From NCBI GenBank assembly GCA_001797365.1, contig MGPH01000008.1:1-35447 (forward strand): a stretch of 35,447 nt of DNA. Reading direction: 5' to 3'. The notes below the pieces were generated by a model. That model made no database searches, was not told the origin of the DNA, and saw nothing but the letters and a program-made list of their open reading frames with translations. Positions 665 to 12,923 of this stretch are shown here, piece by piece (position 1 is the stretch's first letter; each line of letters starts with the position of its first letter). This stretch comes from Deltaproteobacteria bacterium GWA2_45_12 (GTDB lineage: Bacteria; UBA10199). The position numbers and the translations under genes were made by a program.

Positions 665-3600
665 ATGTCTTCTCCACACATAACAAATAAACCCCCGGAC
701 CCCTCGGTATCACCTGTAAAAGAGGGTGCAGTACCGGAACCTGCTCCAGCAGATAGAGCCACAGCCGGTGAAGCAACTCCAACAGGTTTAGATGATGGAG
801 GTGCACCCCCGCTTGATCTTGGAAATGGCCCAGGAACCGTTGATGCCGAGCTCTTCGGCGCACCACAAGCACAACGGAACGGAGCTTCTGTTTCTATAAA
901 AGCTGTTTTTCCACCGGACTCTCCCATTGAAGAAAGATACCGAAGGGTTCGTAATGAAGGCATCACCAATAATGAAGAACTGGCATTGGCATTGGATTAT
1001 TTGGCTAAATTAAATCCAGTCCTTCAAAATATCATAAATATTGTAAAGCATAGAATGGATGCCCACCAACTGACTATCGAAGTTAGAAACGACCAAAAAA
1101 CCCATTCTTATGCCAACCCCAGCTTTCAGGGAAAAGTCGATCGCACCACCTCCCATTTTGGTCAGGCCATTGTCTTGCACAAAAACGCCTTGCCCGATGT
1201 TCTTCTGCATGAAATTCTGCATTGCCTTCCCTTGGAAATTGTACAGACTCTTTTTTCCATTCCCTTTGATTTTCCACCCATCCATCCTGATTTAAGTTAT
1301 CAGGACTTAGTCGAAAATATTGCCGAGCATATTCGACTTAATGAAACTTTAAGTTTTGGAGTGATGCAACTGCTCTACGATATTGAAGAAGATCAGGGAA
1401 TAACGCCCGATTTCACGGACAATGTAATTTTTAAGGAAATCAACAAAGCCTGGCACCATGATGGATTAAAGGGAATCAGGAAAATTTTTGAAACTTATTT
1501 TCAAAATTACGAAAAAAATATTGCCAAAACATCCCTCATCATGGCGCTTATTGTTAAAGGGGAAAGACGTACCGATCTAACACCCGAAGAAGAAGCGCTT
1601 ATCCACGACTCCTCACAAAATGATTACCCAGGGGAACAGTACGTCAAATTTTTTCAGAAAGCCTATTTCAAAAGAGTCCGGCAACTGGCCGCCAAGGGCA
1701 TCTCCTTTCCGGCAGGCCAGTATGATATTAGCGCCATGCTAGCCCGCGGCATCTATAACCCCACCGAAGCGCTCTCCAGTCTCTTTGATAAATTGGATCA
1801 ATTGGAAAAAATTGGAGAGACCGAAATCGATCCGCCATCGACCGCCCAAGCTCCTCAGGAGGCTTCGCATTCTCCGCTACAGGGACACAAACAAACCCTT
1901 CTTGCATCGTATCAGGCTACTATTGCCAGGGTTTTGACCGAACAACCACGCAGCCTTTCCCACGGTGAAATCACAGCCCTTATCTCGTGGATCAGACTGG
2001 CTAAAACTGGTGAAATAAAAAAACTCATCCCCCACCTTTACTTCTACATTGACGAAAAACAGGCCGACTTATTTTTAAGACTAGCCTTTGAAATTTATCG
2101 AAGAGGGTTTGTAACCCAGGCCCATGAAATAATCGATCAAATCATGGCCCGCCATTTCAGGCCTGATTTTATTGAACCCATTTTTGAAATCATGGATGAA
2201 AAAGCCGCCTTAAAGGCCATTGAAACTTGTTTATCACATGTAAACAATCACCATCGTCAAACAAATATAGGGGCCCATATGAGCACCTTGGCTAATACTC
2301 AATCATGGAATGACGATCAAAGGAGCAATCTTTGGAGCAATATTAATTATTATTCTTTCATCTTTTCTGCATGCGGCTTGAAAAATATTTACAATAGTCT
2401 CAAGCCTTCTCTCTCCATGCCTGACAATCGAAGAGAATGGCGATGGCTTGTGCAAGGCACCGATCAATCTAGTTACAAACATGAATTTAAGGAGGCCCCA
2501 TGGAAACTTTATTTAAAAGAAATTGACGTTCTCAGGCGCAGGAAAAATCTGCCTCCACACATTGTTTCCCGACTTGATCAAATCTGGGAAGCTCATCGCG
2601 ATTGGTTGCGTTCTGCTTATACAACATTAAACGAGATCATGTCTTTTACTGACAATGAAGATCTTATTTATCTTGTTGCCGATAACAGTGAGATTTTAGG
2701 ATTGTTTAGTGACTCTGACTTGGAAATTATTTTTCAATCCTTTTCTGAAGAGAAACGAAAAATAGCCATGGGGCTAGCCCAAAAGGACCGGTTTGATATC
2801 AAGGATGACAAAGAAACCACCAAAAAAATAATTGCGGAGATTGTTTCTGATACAAGCCTTGATACGCATGAAAATCTAAGGAGCTCCACATCGATGAGCG
2901 CTGTCAAACTGGCCGTACTCAATGAAATTTTGCAGAGTAGCTACGAAAAAAATGGCGGGGATCTGACCTACCTCGGTTTAAGCGATGAAGAAATTTCAAA
3001 AATTGAACAGTTTGCCAAAACTCAACATGCATTCCAATTACCAGATAGTTATCTGGCCTTGATGCAATTCCATCCTTTCAGACAAGACTCCCTGGATAGA
3101 ACACGTACCGCCAATAGCTGGACAGAATTCGGGAATGATATGTTCAGTCCTTTTGGCACACAAGAGGAGGGACCAAGAATTGAATCAGGATTGCTTCTTT
3201 TAACCCACTTAAAAAGCGGACAACCCCAAACACGTTACCAATATGCCCTGGAAACATTAAGAAATCTTTTATACGACAACAGTGGATTGTGGGGTCTGAC
3301 TGATCTTTCCAATGATAGAAGAGATGGCAACATGCCTTTAAGTGAACGTGTCGATCAAACTCTGGCCCCTCTGGCCATTTATTTCCATCGAAGGGCCCTT
3401 AAAGAAGGAGAAATGGGCATTGCCCAAGGGTTCTATGATTTTCTTTTTCGAGAGATTCCCCGCACGCTTCAAGATAAAGTTGAGTTTCCCGTCATCATCG
3501 GGCGTGGTCAAAGGCGTTCGGCTATCAGCCGCTCGTTTTTCATGGCCGAGCTCTCGAGCTATGAATGGCGGCTTCAAATGGACCGCGAAAGACACATCCT

Positions 3601-6600
3601 TTTCACGCAAAATCCAAAAAACGAAGAGGATATCAATGTGTGGTTTGCCCGAATAAACAAGGAAATCGAACGCGGCAGCCCAAACATTACCTGGCAAACT
3701 CTTTATTATTTCACGGAGGAATTTCAGGAAGATAAAGTTGAAGGGCCTTACCTTGTACGACTTTATGAAAGCCTAAACCTTAAAATCATCACCGATCCAT
3801 CCATGGCCGCCGTACACAAGCTGGTTGAAAGCGTGCACAAGTCCCCCCTTTCTGCCGAAGCAAAAGACGGACTTTTCCATGATCTTTTTGGCGATCTTCT
3901 GGAACTGGCCAAATCAGCCTCTTCCACCAAACTCGATTATCTTTCTTTGGTACGCTGGGTAGCCGGATGGAAAACACCGTTTGATATCGACGCCATCATG
4001 AAGGATTATCCACGAACGGAAGCTCTTTTGGCCGTTGAACTGGCAGGGTTTGACCCGCTCACCAACCAAGGCAAGGCCTATGACGAGCACCTTCGCCTGG
4101 AAGCATTCGCTTTGGCCGGAATTGTTTTGCATCGCAACGAAACCAAATCAAATGTGGATAATGAAGCCTCCGTTGTCCCTGAATTTGTTTGTGGTTACAA
4201 CGAAGTCGAAGTTTTACAATCCATGGGGTTGGTTAGCCCCCATGATCCTGTACTGACACCTTTTTCAAGAGATCATTTGTACGGACCAAAGCCCTATCTT
4301 AAAGAGCACTGCTTGAGAGTTCTTACCTATCTTAGACAGAATCAAACTTATTCCCAGGCTCAAAGAGAATCGATTCTGAAACTGATAGACAGATTAATGG
4401 CCTTCGATGATGAAGGAGTGAACAGCGCTTTTGCTGAATGGCTGACCAGCAAGGATGCTATCTCGCATATTCTGTATCTGGATATTCTTAAACTCTTTTT
4501 CAAAAAAAATGATACGTTCGGAGAAACTAAAAGACAAACCAGTATCACACTTTTAAACAAACCCAATTTTTTGCCCCGCACCTTAAAACGCCGCCTCTTT
4601 GAATGGATTACACGAAAAGTATGGTGGTCACCCTGGGTTCAGGACAAATTGGAGAATTTAAAAAAAGACCCCAAAGGAACAAATGAAACAGATTTCATGG
4701 TGTTTCTTTTAAAGGTTTACGATTGTGTTGTTGCAGAAATTCCCGATGATTTCATGCTAGACCGTCTCAACAAGGACAACACCCTTTTGAGCCAATGGCT
4801 CAGGACCGGCGACACCAGCATGCTGCCAAAAGGCTCACTTTTACATATTGAAAAAATAACTGACGATGCTCTTGACACACTCAAGAAGGAAAAATGTTCC
4901 GAGGCAACAATGCCGGTTAGAACCCGCCATGATCTGGTCATGCGGGTTCTTTTTATGGCAAAAGCCATCTGCGAAGTAGCACCCACCACCCCATCTTTAA
5001 ATTTAGCTGAAACATTGAAGCCAGACCTTGTGAAGAAAAATCCTGCACTCTTTGGGCGTGCCCTTCTTTTCCCCGGCGAAACTTACCAAACCATGAATCC
5101 ATCCATTTTGGAAGAACGCTTGCGCCTTTTTTCAATCATGCTGAGCAGGGCTGGTTGGGTTGAAGTTTTTGATTGGCTCCAAAATAAGCAAGGTCCAAAT
5201 TACCTTGGATTAAAATACACCTTAACCGATATTGCCCACAGGGTTATTCCCAGTGATTTGGGATTGACTGCCGACAATTCCTGGAGCTGGCAAGATTTTT
5301 CCAGGGCCATTGACTCCATTGAAAATAAATTTGCAACCATTGAGGGAGAACGCCTCATTTTTGAGGCAGCCAATCTCAAGGATGAAGATCTGCCCGATTT
5401 TATCAGGCAAGAAACAGGCTTGAAAAAAGATCTGCTGGTATGGCTTTTCCAGATTTTGGACCCTGTGGCCAAAACCATTTTTCTGCGCAAACTCAAAGAC
5501 GCAAATACCGATGAAGAAAAAATCAAACTTTTGGGAGAAGCCTCGCACCTTGAAAAATTGCTTCAATTAGCCAGTGTGCACCCTGCAGTACCCAAGGCCC
5601 AACAGGAGATCCTGAAAATTTTTCAAAAACATGTTCCGCCGCGCGATCCCTTGGATGTGAAGGCCACCATAGAATTGAGTCTGGAGCCCTGGCAGTTGGC
5701 CAAACTGACCGTTGATCTGGCAAACCCCCTTTCAGAAGGAACCATCGGCGGCGTCTATCGCGCCATATATGATGGCAACGAAATCGTACTCAAAGTCATT
5801 CCGCAAGGGAAACGCCGCGACCTGACAAATTCACTGGCATCGCTTCAACGGCTAAGGCTCATCCTGATGGCCTCTGAATATAAAAATTACGGCTCGCATA
5901 CCCTCGAACATCTTCTTTCTTTTTACGAACGGGTGATTGTGGAAGAAATTGATTTAAGAATTGAACACGAAAGAGCCCAAAGAATGCGCGCCCTGGTACA
6001 GGGGCTACCGGGTTTTCATGTACCAGCCTATCGGGAAGATCTTTCCACAGTATCTGTAGCCGCCATGGAAAACCTTCCCCCCTATGACCTCATGCATGCC
6101 GATCTTGCCACACGCAAGCAAATCGCAGAAAAAATCGAAAGTGAGCTTTTGCCCGCCATGATCTGGAAAGGTCTTTTCCATTACGACCTGCACCCGGGAA
6201 ATATGGGCGTGCGCTATAATAGCGAAAATCAACCAGAGGTGGTTATTTACGATATGGGACGCGTTTGTGAATTAGACACTACCCAGCAAGCAACCCTCAT
6301 GAGCCTTTATGGCGTTTTGTCAGAGACTACGGAGGGGGCATTCAATATGGAAGCCATTATTCCGTTGCTGCGCCAAATGGGAAAGGTGACCGATGAGGAA
6401 AAATTCAGGAATATGGCCCAAGTTTTTTCAAAGACCTCAAGTTCGGATCCCGTCACCATTTTGGAAGCCATTTGTCCCGAATTAGCCGAATATGGCCTTG
6501 AACTTGATGACACCTATGTAAAACTTCTTTTAATGTTTGTGACCTGGAATGGGACCAAACGGGAATTGTTGAATGAAACATCCCTTCTCGCCGCGCAAAC

Positions 6601-6970
6601 TTTGCCTTCCAGAACACCTCCGGTACATATCGACACACCACGTTCCGGCTCATCGGACACACTGCGCACAACCCAGTTCCACACCTCAACCCTCATTGGC
6701 ATGCCGGCTATAGCGCCAAATTCAGGAGAAACCAATTTATTGGAAGGCCCGTGGCCCCAAGATCCTCTTGCACAAAACATTCCTGTAAATTTGGTGACAG
6801 AGGGGGCGACGGCACTCAAACCAAAACCCGAAACCACAAAACACCGGGGACCAACCGTCGTACGATCCCCACGGCAAACGGCCACTAGAAACATCCGCCC
6901 GGCCATGACGGGTCTATCCAAATTTTCAACATTTAATCGCACATCCATTCCACGCTTCTTTTCTCGATAA
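665..6970 (+). CDS. Giant protein with putative HExxH metalloprotease site and C-terminal ABC1/UbiB-like kinase domain
   Basis: This 2101-residue protein has a Pro/Ala-rich N-terminus (about 1-70), then a segment containing HEILH at residues 182-186, a match to the zincin HExxH motif; an acidic helix with ENIAEH lies about 35 residues later and could give the third ligand. The middle (about 300-1650) is mostly predicted helical and unrecognised. Residues about 1680-1900 resemble the ABC1/AarF/UbiB atypical kinase fold: a nucleotide-loop-like segment (SEGTIGGVYRA), a lysine in VLKVI (K1710), an EEIDLRIEHERAQ helix, the catalytic-loop-like HYDLHPGN (1839-1846) and YDMGRV in place of DFG (D1863). 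The family's alanine-rich loop is replaced by a glycine-rich one and the usual KxGQ motif is not seen just upstream. The last ~130 residues are low-complexity and basic. No signal peptide or membrane segment is visible. Kinase assignment is fairly secure; protease function is inference. Confidence 0.8.
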   Translation: MSSPHITNKPPDPSVSPVKEGAVPEPAPADRATAGEATPTGLDDGGAPPLDLGNGPGTVDAELFGAPQAQRNGASVSIKAVFPPDSPIEERYRRVRNEGITNNEELALALDYLAKLNPVLQNIINIVKHRMDAHQLTIEVRNDQKTHSYANPSFQGKVDRTTSHFGQAIVLHKNALPDVLLHEILHCLPLEIVQTLFSIPFDFPPIHPDLSYQDLVENIAEHIRLNETLSFGVMQLLYDIEEDQGITPDFTDNVIFKEINKAWHHDGLKGIRKIFETYFQNYEKNIAKTSLIMALIVKGERRTDLTPEEEALIHDSSQNDYPGEQYVKFFQKAYFKRVRQLAAKGISFPAGQYDISAMLARGIYNPTEALSSLFDKLDQLEKIGETEIDPPSTAQAPQEASHSPLQGHKQTLLASYQATIARVLTEQPRSLSHGEITALISWIRLAKTGEIKKLIPHLYFYIDEKQADLFLRLAFEIYRRGFVTQAHEIIDQIMARHFRPDFIEPIFEIMDEKAALKAIETCLSHVNNHHRQTNIGAHMSTLANTQSWNDDQRSNLWSNINYYSFIFSACGLKNIYNSLKPSLSMPDNRREWRWLVQGTDQSSYKHEFKEAPWKLYLKEIDVLRRRKNLPPHIVSRLDQIWEAHRDWLRSAYTTLNEIMSFTDNEDLIYLVADNSEILGLFSDSDLEIIFQSFSEEKRKIAMGLAQKDRFDIKDDKETTKKIIAEIVSDTSLDTHENLRSSTSMSAVKLAVLNEILQSSYEKNGGDLTYLGLSDEEISKIEQFAKTQHAFQLPDSYLALMQFHPFRQDSLDRTRTANSWTEFGNDMFSPFGTQEEGPRIESGLLLLTHLKSGQPQTRYQYALETLRNLLYDNSGLWGLTDLSNDRRDGNMPLSERVDQTLAPLAIYFHRRALKEGEMGIAQGFYDFLFREIPRTLQDKVEFPVIIGRGQRRSAISRSFFMAELSSYEWRLQMDRERHILFTQNPKNEEDINVWFARINKEIERGSPNITWQTLYYFTEEFQEDKVEGPYLVRLYESLNLKIITDPSMAAVHKLVESVHKSPLSAEAKDGLFHDLFGDLLELAKSASSTKLDYLSLVRWVAGWKTPFDIDAIMKDYPRTEALLAVELAGFDPLTNQGKAYDEHLRLEAFALAGIVLHRNETKSNVDNEASVVPEFVCGYNEVEVLQSMGLVSPHDPVLTPFSRDHLYGPKPYLKEHCLRVLTYLRQNQTYSQAQRESILKLIDRLMAFDDEGVNSAFAEWLTSKDAISHILYLDILKLFFKKNDTFGETKRQTSITLLNKPNFLPRTLKRRLFEWITRKVWWSPWVQDKLENLKKDPKGTNETDFMVFLLKVYDCVVAEIPDDFMLDRLNKDNTLLSQWLRTGDTSMLPKGSLLHIEKITDDALDTLKKEKCSEATMPVRTRHDLVMRVLFMAKAICEVAPTTPSLNLAETLKPDLVKKNPALFGRALLFPGETYQTMNPSILEERLRLFSIMLSRAGWVEVFDWLQNKQGPNYLGLKYTLTDIAHRVIPSDLGLTADNSWSWQDFSRAIDSIENKFATIEGERLIFEAANLKDEDLPDFIRQETGLKKDLLVWLFQILDPVAKTIFLRKLKDANTDEEKIKLLGEASHLEKLLQLASVHPAVPKAQQEILKIFQKHVPPRDPLDVKATIELSLEPWQLAKLTVDLANPLSEGTIGGVYRAIYDGNEIVLKVIPQGKRRDLTNSLASLQRLRLILMASEYKNYGSHTLEHLLSFYERVIVEEIDLRIEHERAQRMRALVQGLPGFHVPAYREDLSTVSVAAMENLPPYDLMHADLATRKQIAEKIESELLPAMIWKGLFHYDLHPGNMGVRYNSENQPEVVIYDMGRVCELDTTQQATLMSLYGVLSETTEGAFNMEAIIPLLRQMGKVTDEEKFRNMAQVFSKTSSSDPVTILEAICPELAEYGLELDDTYVKLLLMFVTWNGTKRELLNETSLLAAQTLPSRTPPVHIDTPRSGSSDTLRTTQFHTSTLIGMPAIAPNSGETNLLEGPWPQDPLAQNIPVNLVTEGATALKPKPETTKHRGPTVVRSPRQTATRNIRPAMTGLSKFSTFNRTSIPRFFSR

Positions 6971-10012: not shown

Positions 10013-10108
10013 TAGGCAGCACTTTGGATGGAAGTTTCTTCGTTTAAATCAACTAACTTGGCGGCCATGGACTGATTTCACTAGCAAATGTCTTTGGGCA
10101 ATTCAACT

Positions 10109-10147
10109 GGGAATTCATTGATTGGGAATTCATTGATGGGAATACAT
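10109..10147. repeat. Short tandem repeat, about 14-15 bp, three units
   Basis: GGGAATTCATTGATT at 10109-10123 is followed by GGGAATTCATTGAT at 10124-10137 and a partial, diverged GGGAATACAT at 10138-10147. It lies upstream of the acyl-CoA ligase start in non-coding DNA. Function unknown. Confidence 0.75.
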
Positions 10148-10153
10148 GGCCCC

Positions 10154-10228
10154 GTAAGGGCGATTCTTGTAATCGCCCTTGGACTGGGCGAACACCCTAT
10201 AAGGCGGGCAGACAAGGTTCACCTACGA
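10154..10228. repeat. Palindromic repeat pair (GTAAGGGCG type)
   Basis: AAGGGCGATT at 10156-10165 and AATCGCCCTT at 10171-10180 form perfect 10-bp inverted arms around a 5-base loop. A second, degenerate copy follows, from GGGCGAACACC to AGGTTCACCTAC (about 10187-10228). Both belong to the dispersed GTAGGGGCG family of this genome. Confidence 0.7.
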
Positions 10229-10243
10229 AATGGATCAGGCCCC

Positions 10244-10460
10244 TGTGGATAATTTTTTTGATTATTCTTTTATTTAACATGTAATTAAAAATGCTTATTC
10301 ACACAAACACTCACAACTGAAGTTCTTTCTGAGTTAAGGGCCTAAAACAGGGCTTCCGCCTGCGGCTTCTACGTGAACAAACTTATCCACACCTGTGGAT
10401 AACAATTTTTATTTGAAAATTTTTCTTATTTTTCAGTAAGATAAAAAAATCAAATTTTTA
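10244..10460. other. DnaA-box cluster with AT-rich DNA; possible replication origin
   Basis: Four exact matches to the DnaA box TTATNCACA occur in 160 bases: TGTGGATAA at 10244-10252 (reverse orientation), TTATTCACA at 10295-10303, TTATCCACA at 10383-10391 and TGTGGATAA at 10394-10402 (reverse). The last two form an inverted pair separated by two bases. AT-rich stretches lie between the first two boxes (10251-10298) and after the last (10401-10460), as an unwinding element would. There is no gene here. Against an origin: the large ribosomal-protein/dnaB operon to the right points toward this site, dnaA, dnaN and rpmH are not in the window, and gene strand does not switch cleanly. A DnaA-regulated promoter region is the main alternative. 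Confidence 0.45.
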
Positions 10461-10499
10461 GTGTATTGTCGTCTTAAAAACTTTGTGGTTTAAATAGCT

Positions 10500-11173
10500 T
10501 TGTCAGCAGGAAACTTTGAAATTAAATGTTCTTTTAAAATCTCATTATCGTTTAGCAAGCCCTCTAAAGTTTACTTTTGTGGACGCAAGTTAAAGGGAAG
10601 TTACAATCTTTAAATTTGCCCCAGGGTTTTTTGTAAAAAAAACTCTTGGCAAAGGGACCGGACCCAAGATTGGCCCTCTCTTGAACGCAAGAGCAACCCA
10701 TGAGAAAAAAGGCCCGAATGGAGGAAGAATTCGAAAGAAAACTTCTTATTCTCCCACCCGAAAAACTCTAAAGTTCCGCTTCATCAAGATTCGTCAAGAA
10801 GCTTGATTAGCAAGAACAAAAGAGAGGAAAGCCTGGAAGCAGGTTGTAAGGGTGAGAGGAGAAAACCATAGAGACCCAATGGAAATCTCACAAGAGGACG
10901 GGCAACAAAAAGACTTAGCACTCCATTAAGTCAAAAGCTGCCGATTCTTGCTTAAGGCACAACTCCTTGAAACTGGGGCGGTCGGGCTCATCTTAAAGGC
11001 GACTTTAAGTGACCCGAAGAAACCAACAGCACGAAGGAATGGGGGTTTGAAAAAATCACCGCCCTAAGCAAAAGTTTTAAAACTCTAAAGAGACATTCAT
11101 GCTTACTAAGCGATAACAGGACACAAAAGCCCGATTGCAAATGCAAATTTGTAACTCGGGCTTTTGTGCTTTT
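10500..11173 (+). ncRNA. Candidate large structured non-coding RNA (about 670 nt), family not recognised
   Basis: This stretch has no open reading frame of note on either strand but many strong helices. Examples: 10615-10653 (TTTGCC, AGGG and six T paired with A-tract, CTCT and GGCAAA); 10678-10693 (6 bp, loop AACG); 10720-10754; 10852-10857 with 10886-10891 (GTGAGA/TCTCAC) enclosing CCAT/ATGG; 10912-10932 (GACTTA/TAAGTC); 10983-11016, whose tip CTTAAAG-GCGA-CTTTAAG closes with a GNRA tetraloop; and a long-range pairing of 10948-10957 and 10978-10982 with 11063-11071 and 11058-11062. It ends in a strong intrinsic terminator. A weak promoter (TTGTCG at 10466, TTAAAT at 10490) would start it near 10500; the 5' end is a guess. 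I do not see RNase P, tmRNA, SRP or group II intron hallmarks. Confidence 0.6.
11122..11173 (+). terminator. Strong intrinsic terminator ending the candidate ncRNA
   Basis: CACAAAAGCCCGA at 11122-11134 pairs perfectly with TCGGGCTTTTGTG at 11156-11168. The loop itself continues the helix (CAAAT at 11138-11142 with ATTTG at 11147-11151, closed by a GCAA tetraloop). The stem is followed by CTTTT. There is no T-run on the other side, so it acts on plus-strand transcription. Confidence 0.85.
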
Positions 11174-11174
11174 A

Positions 11175-11196
11175 AGGACAATCCCAGAATTGTCCT
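11175..11196 (+). promoter_or_regulatory. Hairpin just upstream of the DUF374 start codon
   Basis: AGGACAAT at 11175-11182 and ATTGTCCT at 11189-11196 form a perfect 8-bp stem with a 6-base loop, ending 9 bases before the ATG at 11206, where a ribosome binding site would normally lie. No Shine-Dalgarno sequence is visible there. It may control translation or insulate the gene from the preceding RNA; this is inference. Confidence 0.4.
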
Positions 11197-11205
11197 ACCA
11201 AACAA

Positions 11206-11838
11206 ATGAAGTATCGCGTGGATACAATCCCCTATTGGCTCAAACCTTTTTTCTGGATTTATGGGTATGGGTTGGGATTTTTATGCTTCATCGGATTTTG
11301 TCTTCTGCACGGGACTTGCCGCTTTCAATTTAAAAACGTTCCTCCAAACAATAACAATTACATCTACTGCATTTGGCATGATGCTCTCATTCCCTATTGC
11401 ATCACTTTTTTAAGGCATCAACGGCATGTATGGATCAATCATCCTGCTTGGTACATGAAACCCATCCATGTATTACTTAAACTTCAGAGAATTCATAAAT
11501 TATGCCTGGGATCTACTGGAAATGATGGAAAAGAAGCCGCCGACGAGATCGTGGACTATTTAAAAAAGGGGTATTCCACGGTTATGGCAACCGATGGCCC
11601 CTATGGCCCGCCCAAAGTTTTAAAAAAAGGAGCCCTCCATATGGCCATCCAATCAGGGGTGCCCATTGTTCCCGTGCAATTTGTCACTTCCAAAACTTAT
11701 TTCTTCAAAAAAAGCTGGGATGGCAAACGCATCCCCCTGCCCTTTTCAACCATTCGAGTGATTTATGGACATCCCATTAATGTGACCAAAAAGAATTTTG
11801 ATGAATCGTATCAAAAAATTCAGAATGCATTATCTTAA
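11206..11838 (+). CDS. DUF374 lysophospholipid acyltransferase family protein
   Basis: A 210-residue protein of the DUF374 branch of the PlsC-like acyltransferase superfamily. A hydrophobic N-terminal helix (about 11-35) would hold it at the inner membrane. The family's version of the acyltransferase block is visible as IWHDALIP (about 57-64), followed by GSTGNDGKEA and ATDGPYGPPKVLKKGA, which is the usual second block, and GVPIVPVQF. Members are expected to transfer acyl chains to a lipid acceptor, in some bacteria in lipid A or related glycolipid assembly; the acceptor here is not known. The gene stands alone between the candidate ncRNA and a repeat-rich terminator. The start has no Shine-Dalgarno sequence but lies before all conserved blocks. 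Confidence 0.85.
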   Translation: MKYRVDTIPYWLKPFFWIYGYGLGFLCFIGFCLLHGTCRFQFKNVPPNNNNYIYCIWHDALIPYCITFLRHQRHVWINHPAWYMKPIHVLLKLQRIHKLCLGSTGNDGKEAADEIVDYLKKGYSTVMATDGPYGPPKVLKKGALHMAIQSGVPIVPVQFVTSKTYFFKKSWDGKRIPLPFSTIRVIYGHPINVTKKNFDESYQKIQNALS

Positions 11839-11872: not shown

Positions 11873-11993
11873 AAACGGGCCCAAATCCCCCTTCCCCCCC
11901 TTTTTTAAAGGGGACTATACGGAGAAAAAAATGATCCTTAGCCTTATTTCCCCCTTTAAAAAAGGGGGATTAAGGGGGATTTGGGCCCGTTTT
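11873..11993. repeat. Long inverted repeat of C-run/A-run type, likely bidirectional terminator
   Basis: Two arms of roughly 40 bases (about 11873-11914 and 11950-11993) are near-perfect inverted copies, each reading ACGGGCCCAAATCCCCCTT then a C-run and TTTTTTAAAGGGG. It sits between the convergent ends of the DUF374 gene and queG and would terminate both. The right arm is also the coding end of queG, giving its last six residues (TGPNPP) and its TAA stop. Confidence 0.8.
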
Positions 11994-12923
11994 TCTCCCC
12001 GCTTCCGTATTCTTATTGATTTGAATATTTCTTAAAAGCCCCTCCCACTTGGTTCTTTTGATGGGGCTGTTTTTAAAACGATGGGAAAATTCTTCTTGGC
12101 TCAAATTTTTAAGCGATGAAAGGGAGGGATGAAAATTTTCTGGACGAGGTTTAAAAGATTCCTCACGGGAAACGGGAATTTGTCTATTCCACGGACAAAC
12201 ATCCTGGCAGATATCACACCCGTAAATATGATGCCCCATTTTACTTTGCAATTTTGGGTCAATCTCTCCGCGATGTTCAATGGTCAGATAAGAAATGCAT
12301 TTGTTCGCGTCTAACTCATAGGCTTTCAAGGCATTCGTGGGGCAGGCATCCAGGCAACGCGTGCATTTGCCGCAATGATCGGCAGCAGGCTCATCATATT
12401 CCAGCTCAAGATCAGTGAGCATTTCTCCAAGAAAAAAGAAGGAACCGTTTTTTTGATTGATCAAAAGGGTGTTTTTACCCACCCAACCAAGCCCGGCGCT
12501 TTCGGCATAACTTCGCTCCAAAATGGGCCCCGTATCCACATATGATTTTAATTTTGCTTCAGGATGATGATTCAAAATGAAAGCTTCCAGATTTTTTAAT
12601 TTTGCCAACATCACGTCGTGATAATCATCCCCCCAGGCATAATTAGAGACCCACCCCTTGCCCGCTTCCACGTTCTCAATTGAAAGAGGCCAACCGTGAT
12701 AATAATTCAAGCCAACACAAATAAACGACTTGGCGCCAGGAAGTATTTTTTGGGGATCACTTCTTCTTTCAGCACCGCGCACAAGCCAATCCATTGTTCC
12801 ATAAAGCTTGTGGTCCATCCAATTTTTGAAAAATGAAAAATGGGGATGCGTTTCGGCTTGTGTAATCCCCACCAAATCAAATCCAATCTCATGGGCTTTT
12901 TGTTTGATAAGTTCAGACTTCAT
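11970..12923 (-). CDS. queG: Epoxyqueuosine reductase
   Basis: A 317-residue QueG, the cobalamin-dependent iron-sulfur enzyme that reduces epoxyqueuosine to queuosine in tRNA, the last step of the pathway. The N-terminal cobalamin-binding domain carries the expected VDTGPILERSYAE segment with the catalytic aspartate (D130) and GLGWVGKNTLLI. Two 4Fe-4S clusters are provided by CGKCTRCLDACP and GCDICQDVCPW. The conserved KRTKWEGLLRN end of the core is present, but the family's following LALGN-like tail and HEAT-like extension are missing. Instead the protein ends in a short unrelated tail whose last six residues and stop codon come from the repeat at 11950-11993. The start ATG overlaps the stop of the upstream reductase by 4 bases (ATGA), so the two are cotranslated. 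Confidence 0.93.
   Translation of the reverse strand: MKSELIKQKAHEIGFDLVGITQAETHPHFSFFKNWMDHKLYGTMDWLVRGAERRSDPQKILPGAKSFICVGLNYYHGWPLSIENVEAGKGWVSNYAWGDDYHDVMLAKLKNLEAFILNHHPEAKLKSYVDTGPILERSYAESAGLGWVGKNTLLINQKNGSFFFLGEMLTDLELEYDEPAADHCGKCTRCLDACPTNALKAYELDANKCISYLTIEHRGEIDPKLQSKMGHHIYGCDICQDVCPWNRQIPVSREESFKPRPENFHPSLSSLKNLSQEEFSHRFKNSPIKRTKWEGLLRNIQINKNTEAGRKTGPNPP

Follow-up and report, generated by a model that had tools for sequence, protein, structure and literature searches.

A candidate new family of large structured RNA with an rRNA-type boxA and upstream DnaA boxes in uncultured bacteria

What is encoded by a stretch of bacterial DNA that holds no gene but ends in a strong terminator? 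This question is raised by contig MGPH01000008.1 of Deltaproteobacteria bacterium GWA2_45_12, of which a stretch of 35,447 nucleotides (the window) was analyzed. An earlier note on this DNA had described a gene-free region closed by a very strong intrinsic terminator and had proposed a large structured RNA at positions 10500–11173. Our ORF scan of the window confirmed the gap, as no ORF of ≥70 amino acids lies between 10012 and 11206. The terminator is as strong as described, with a perfect 13-bp stem (CACAAAAGCCCGA at 11122–11134 pairs with TCGGGCTTTTGTG at 11156–11168) followed by TTTT at 11170–11173; a simple scanner missed this hairpin (11122–11173) solely on account of a loop length above 8. 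The proposed boundaries proved nearly exact. Judged from its sequence, the stretch 10501–11173 is a stand-alone unit that encodes a structured RNA and is predicted to be transcribed. The unit and its upstream region comprise the following features.

10244–10252, minus strand: distal DnaA box TTATCCACA, by sequence match
10295–10303, plus strand: near-perfect DnaA box TTATTCACA, at the spacing (−251/−253) of a perfect box in genome G005
10383–10391, plus strand: perfect DnaA box, one half of the inverted pair TTATCCACA-CC-TGTGGATAA, by sequence match
10394–10402, minus strand: perfect DnaA box completing the inverted pair, by sequence match
10466–10494, plus strand: predicted promoter, −35 TTGTCG at 10466–10471, 17 bp, extended −10 TGg-TTTAAA at 10489–10494
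10501–11173, plus strand: whole putative RNA transcription unit, ∼670 nt; boxA to the 3′ end of P1, ∼590 nt
10527–10539, plus strand: putative boxA antitermination element TGTTCTTTTAAAA, kept in nearly all homologs
10545–10555, plus strand: closing helix P1, 5′ strand TTATCGTTTAG, with covariation in 23 homologs
10718–10721, plus strand: central helix, ATGG strand, pairing with CCAT at 10866–10869 (98.9%)
10866–10869, plus strand: central helix, CCAT strand, conserved among homologs
10893–11086, plus strand: most conserved 3′ domain (models R1/R2), with AGAGGACaGg...CAAAAG, AAATCCCTGAAGC, CCAACAGCACGAGGGAATG, and ACTCTA
10992–11009, plus strand: GCGA-loop hairpin, stem 10992–10998/11003–11009
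11106–11116, plus strand: closing helix P1, 3′ strand CTAAGCGATAA, with covariation in 23 homologs
11122–11173, plus strand: intrinsic terminator, 13-bp stem and T tail, seen in the window and in homologs

Folding of 10480–11180, which includes the terminator, gave z = −6.4 relative to dinucleotide shuffles, and folding of 10501–11122, which leaves it out, gave z = −3.5. We aligned 23 full-length homologs, 44–58% identical to the window, without the use of any structure. At this level of identity compensatory change is extensive: both partners have changed in 68 of the 79 consensus pairs, and 92.8% of the cells are paired, compared with 38–49% in slid controls. None of 500 shuffles matched the 68/79 result. 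Because the shuffle test ignores relatedness, a purpose-written script was used to run an R-scape-style null that takes the tree into account. At E < 0.05, 18 of the 79 pairs were significant, and of the 13 highest-scoring column pairs (∼180,000 in all), 12 belong to the structure. Among eight units from four genomes, compensatory change was found in 101 of 167 predicted pairs. The 3′ domain, aligned from 27 copies, shows changes on both sides at 50 of 60 pairs and 91.9% paired cells (0/500 shuffles as good; slid controls, 35–47%), in an alignment that was fitted to the model and hence leans toward the structure. No reading frame is consistently kept among the homologs, whose longest ORF within the RNA measures anywhere between 24 and 141 amino acids, and this favors a structured RNA. 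Family members are 560–640 nt long, and a terminator-like hairpin follows the RNA at 21 of 23 loci versus 20 of 115 shuffled controls. The locus almost certainly represents a structured RNA family.

The fold comprises several domains. Helix P1 (10545–10555/11106–11116) closes the whole RNA, GGCC..ATGG/CCAT..GACC closes the middle, and AGAG/CTCT closes the 3′ domain. P1 is 97% paired in the 23 homologs, and its outer pairs covary; the central-helix pair of columns 244 and 419 reaches E ∼1e-5 in the tree-aware test. All local helices listed in the earlier note are present in the window, and homologs back some of them and not others. The GCGA tetraloop helix holds, with its stem paired in 100% of the cells in close relatives and its loop variable. 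From the proposed long-range closure of the 3′ domain, 10948–10954/11065–11071 stands (96% in close relatives), whereas 10976–10982/11058–11064 is doubtful (56–77%). The nested stems, however, have to be redrawn: the outer one (10852–10857/10886–10891) is paired in just 29–36% and is not conserved, and the inner CCAT pairs instead with the ATGG of the central helix. P1, boxA, the DnaA boxes, the tandem arrays, and the family distribution are additions of the present analysis. Two loci, L104 (G004) and L108 (G018), possess a shorter 5′ domain, with ∼260–300 nt from boxA to the core versus the usual 340–380 nt, which suggests that one domain may be dispensable. A copy without the 5′ part lies around position 3996 of L115 (G027), where the contig appears chimeric or truncated.

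Shortly before P1, nearly every homolog carries a boxA of the type (T/G)(C/T)TCTTTGA(A/C)AA. The same element (GTTCTTTGAAAA/GCTCTTTGAAAA) precedes 16S rRNA in all 14 genomes examined, and the 16S boxA of the window's own genome reads GTTCTTTGAAAAC. As in boxA-antiterminated stable RNAs, an rRNA-type boxA is found at the 5′ end of what is predicted to be an untranslated transcript, and the element is very likely functional. A predicted sigma-70-type promoter would place the start near 10501. The pattern TTGnnn-17-TyTAAR with a GCG discriminator also occurs in several homologs (G012, G013, G036, G037, and G040), and the promoter is poorly conserved beyond this subset. The arrangement resembles an rRNA operon leader in its same-sequence boxA, a long closing helix for each unit, and tandem units followed by one final terminator. 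It differs in that the new RNA itself is non-ribosomal and in that the 16S leaders of these genomes generally lack DnaA boxes (one box, in 1 of 14).

DnaA boxes are enriched before the RNA. Across 23 loci, the density of boxes with ≤1 mismatch is 4.86 per kb within the 400 bp preceding P1 and 0.26 per kb elsewhere (∼19-fold), a difference beyond chance. The box spacing is conserved: in the majority of the 23 homologs, the proximal box, often part of an inverted pair, lies ∼140–160 bp ahead of P1. Just three perfect boxes were found in 800 kb of G018; one of them is at the RNA promoter, where the tightest three-box cluster of those 800 kb is located. A perfect TGTGGATAA immediately precedes dnaA in G038, as would be expected if this were the DnaA consensus of the group. 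Three loci of family f7 (G043, G044, and G045) have no DnaA boxes, and boxes are missing or weak at both loci of G385; in the second phylum described below, a perfect box lies upstream at the G223 locus only. Control by DnaA would therefore not be universal. The boxes look like promoter-upstream regulatory sites to which DnaA could bind, and they recall DnaA-controlled promoters and datA in that perfect TTATCCACA boxes lie upstream of the promoter. On balance, we consider that DnaA probably controls the RNA. Known DnaA targets are protein genes or a titration site. To our knowledge, no large structured RNA is a DnaA target, and a literature search likewise found none.

A box cluster at a fixed position beside a transcribed region might also mean that the DNA carries the main function, as a datA-like titration site at which transcription modulates DnaA binding and the RNA is secondary. 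However, the conservation of the fold far exceeds the needs of a bystander transcript, and the RNA is kept without boxes at some loci, which makes a titration site improbable.

The family was traced by DNA search and by covariance models. Within eight genomes of the window's order, the DNA search found a single copy in G007 and tandem copies in G005 (two) and G001 (four), at ∼70% identity over 200–350 nt. Model R1 of the 3′ domain detected the RNA in 23 of the 46 genomes of the class and the wider model R2 in 24 of 46; the class and phylum searches cover the same 46 genomes. Phylum members score 64–209 bits with R1 or R2, models that are home-made and give rough E-values. With the exception of G001 and G005, each genome of the phylum has one locus. 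The near-complete genomes G010, G011, G014, G017, and G026 hold no detectable copy, as is the case for about half of the phylum, although absences are soft in fragmentary MAGs. There, the RNA may either be nonessential or have diverged past detection. Members named in a scan of 84,980 species are MAGs labeled Deltaproteobacteria or “bacterium” (e.g. JADGCS010000005, JAHJDR010000011, JACQOY010000002, and PCXA01000013), from a phylum that we take to be GTDB UBA10199.

A broad sample of 385 genomes yielded one further match, in another phylum (G223, 46.9 bits). Model R3, which includes the G223 copy, added two loci in G385, from the same five-genome second phylum. The second-phylum RNAs score 41–61 bits with R3, a model built with one of them; they are likely to be genuine relatives, less certainly so than the phylum members. 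The RNAs that hold these distant relatives (L207, 5400–6520, minus strand; L211, around 4873–5050, plus strand; and L212, around 5061–5240, minus strand) are apparently larger: another conserved stretch (AAAACTCTGAAGGG..AAATCCC..GCGTTGGG.CTGAAA) follows downstream, and the main match is accompanied by additional weak R2/R3 matches. Candidate relatives in Treponema and Oscillospiraceae, where many contigs matched the motif pattern, were rejected. The seven inspected contigs (L068, L077, L078, L090, L096 (Treponema), L093, L062) are a motif trap, consisting of coding DNA (MKDITNLFGSMVFNDAVMQARLPKDIY...) of one shared protein, presumably glutamine-synthetase-III-like by its translation, and R1/R2 reached 16 bits at best on the Treponema and Oscillospiraceae contigs.

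Six GTDB families (f3, f7, f14, f15, f19, and f20) form clades in the RNA tree, arguing for mainly vertical descent with losses. The units of G001 and G005 form one clade, and duplicates cluster by genome. The tandem arrays of these two genomes (L020, 3095–5615, minus strand, four units; L019, 8684–10015, plus strand, two units) contain complete units, which are 70–83% identical to each other within a genome. BoxA and P1 recur in every unit, and a terminator follows the last unit only, as expected of a precursor that would be cut into units. Patchy distribution, tandem duplication, variable context, and the distant relatives in a second phylum could also be explained if the RNA were a mobile or selfish element moving from genome to genome. 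We regard this as very unlikely, given that there is usually one copy per genome, that the RNA tree largely follows the GTDB families, that no viral contig matched the motif pattern, and that no linked mobility gene was noticed.

Three perfect DnaA boxes had also raised the suspicion of a replication origin. DnaA boxes and an AT-rich flank are kept just upstream of the RNA in most homologs, as they might be if the locus were a chromosomal or secondary origin and the RNA an origin-linked primer or regulatory transcript. GC skew in the two genomes with long contigs, G038 and G018, ruled against it. In G038, the skew changes sign at ∼735–800 kb and dnaA is found at 746 kb, whereas the RNA lies at 240 kb; in G018, the cumulative skew has its minimum at ∼525 kb, whereas the RNA lies at 182 kb. 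In both genomes, dnaA is far from the RNA. An origin is thus very unlikely, and the boxes are better read as regulatory sites of the RNA promoter.

The neighborhood of the RNA varies from family to family, with no flanking gene shared, no partner protein common to the loci, and the nearest downstream ORF mostly convergent. By translation, the flanking genes include TsaE-like and ErpA-like proteins in G007, a HisG-like protein in f15, and an RdgB-like protein in f20. In the window, the terminator is followed after 33 nt by a co-directional gene at 11206 (acyltransferase-like, DUF374), as would suit a cis-regulatory leader or riboswitch for this gene. Such a leader is nevertheless most unlikely because the neighboring genes differ between families and no co-directional gene is conserved; moreover, 560–640 nt is a large size for a leader, and tandem arrays of whole units would make no sense for one. 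Elsewhere in the window, we noted a long inverted repeat between two genes (11876–11996; C/T-rich arms around 11885–11915 and 11950–11980), perhaps a miniature element, and an ORF of 2101 amino acids (665–6970), whose sole recognized domain is an ABC1-type kinase (residues ∼1687–1881).

Does the independent RNA belong to a known family? Rfam 15 returned nothing at gathering score for this RNA in the window and the scanned homolog loci, and no ROOL, GOLLD, OLE, or HEARO in 10013–11205 up to E = 10. Below threshold, there were scattered chance matches only, with none consistent, which supports the novelty that had been suggested for the RNA. The stretch GAGGAAAGCC near 10825 resembles the 5′ motif of RNase P; the true RNase P is found on another contig, and tmRNA was rejected, its gene being located elsewhere in the window's genome. 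Size and complexity alone would speak for a diverged form of RNase P, tmRNA, a group I/II intron, OLE, GOLLD, or ROOL. Such an identity is scarcely credible, given the lack of any Rfam 15 family at gathering score or any consistent weak match in the scanned loci and the presence of RNase P (RF00010) and tmRNA (RF00023) elsewhere in the same genome.

ROOL (∼660 nt) and GOLLD (often >800 nt) are multi-helix bacterial RNAs of unknown function that are carried by phages and prophages near tRNA islands; ROOL is reported to be as abundant as 16S rRNA and has no known protein partner (PMC12286853). The new RNA resembles them as a large multi-helix bacterial RNA but is chromosomal, without a match in Rfam or among viral contigs. 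Its core motif pattern, a narrow search, had no match in 2.9 million viral contigs, and the tRNA nearest to the RNA in the window is at 21.7 kb; a phage origin was rejected. We know of no counterpart of the boxA, the DnaA-box promoter, or the tandem arrays in ROOL and GOLLD. With OLE, the RNA shares a large, structured, non-phage nature and a limited set of lineages. OLE is linked to the gene of its protein partner, whereas the new RNA has no conserved neighbor gene and no Rfam match. None of the traits that define known RNA families was found, and we consider the RNA family categorically new. In a looser sense, it would take its place beside ROOL, GOLLD, and OLE, a small set of large ornate RNAs whose function is unknown (PMC12286853).

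Taken as a whole, the locus probably represents a new noncoding RNA family whose large, structured members stand alone, are expressed like rRNA, act in trans, and are kept at a level tied to DnaA. RNA polymerase would initiate near 10501, from the promoter downstream of the DnaA boxes, and the rRNA-type boxA would then recruit the NusB/S10 antitermination machinery and keep Rho from shortening the long untranslated transcript. The RNA would adopt a multi-domain fold closed by P1 and end at the terminator; trimming near P1 is probable, and transcripts of tandem loci would be cut into units. It is very probable that the product is a stable RNA acting in trans, as a structural RNA that may form an oligomer alone or act with a protein encoded elsewhere. 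That it serves as an abundant, rRNA-like scaffold is a tentative proposal, somewhat short of even. Through DnaA, the RNA level could be tied to replication and growth state.

In a bolder version of this model, the amount of an abundant ornate RNA is set directly by DnaA, which initiates chromosome replication, and the RNA forms a particle alone or with protein. This replication-coupled, rRNA-like RNA would be a new kind of RNA machine, found in two or more uncultured phyla, with tandem duplication where more is needed; we regard it as speculative and rather unlikely. If DnaA does drive the RNA, replication initiation would be linked to a structural RNA, a link for which we know of no precedent. 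The family is well supported by covariation, its boxA and DnaA-box signals provide concrete handles on expression, and two genomes offer tandem amplification. Few large structured RNA families lack a known relative, and some of those have proved to be RNA-only particles. The present family shows that small uncultured phyla still harbor entire RNA families that are absent from Rfam.
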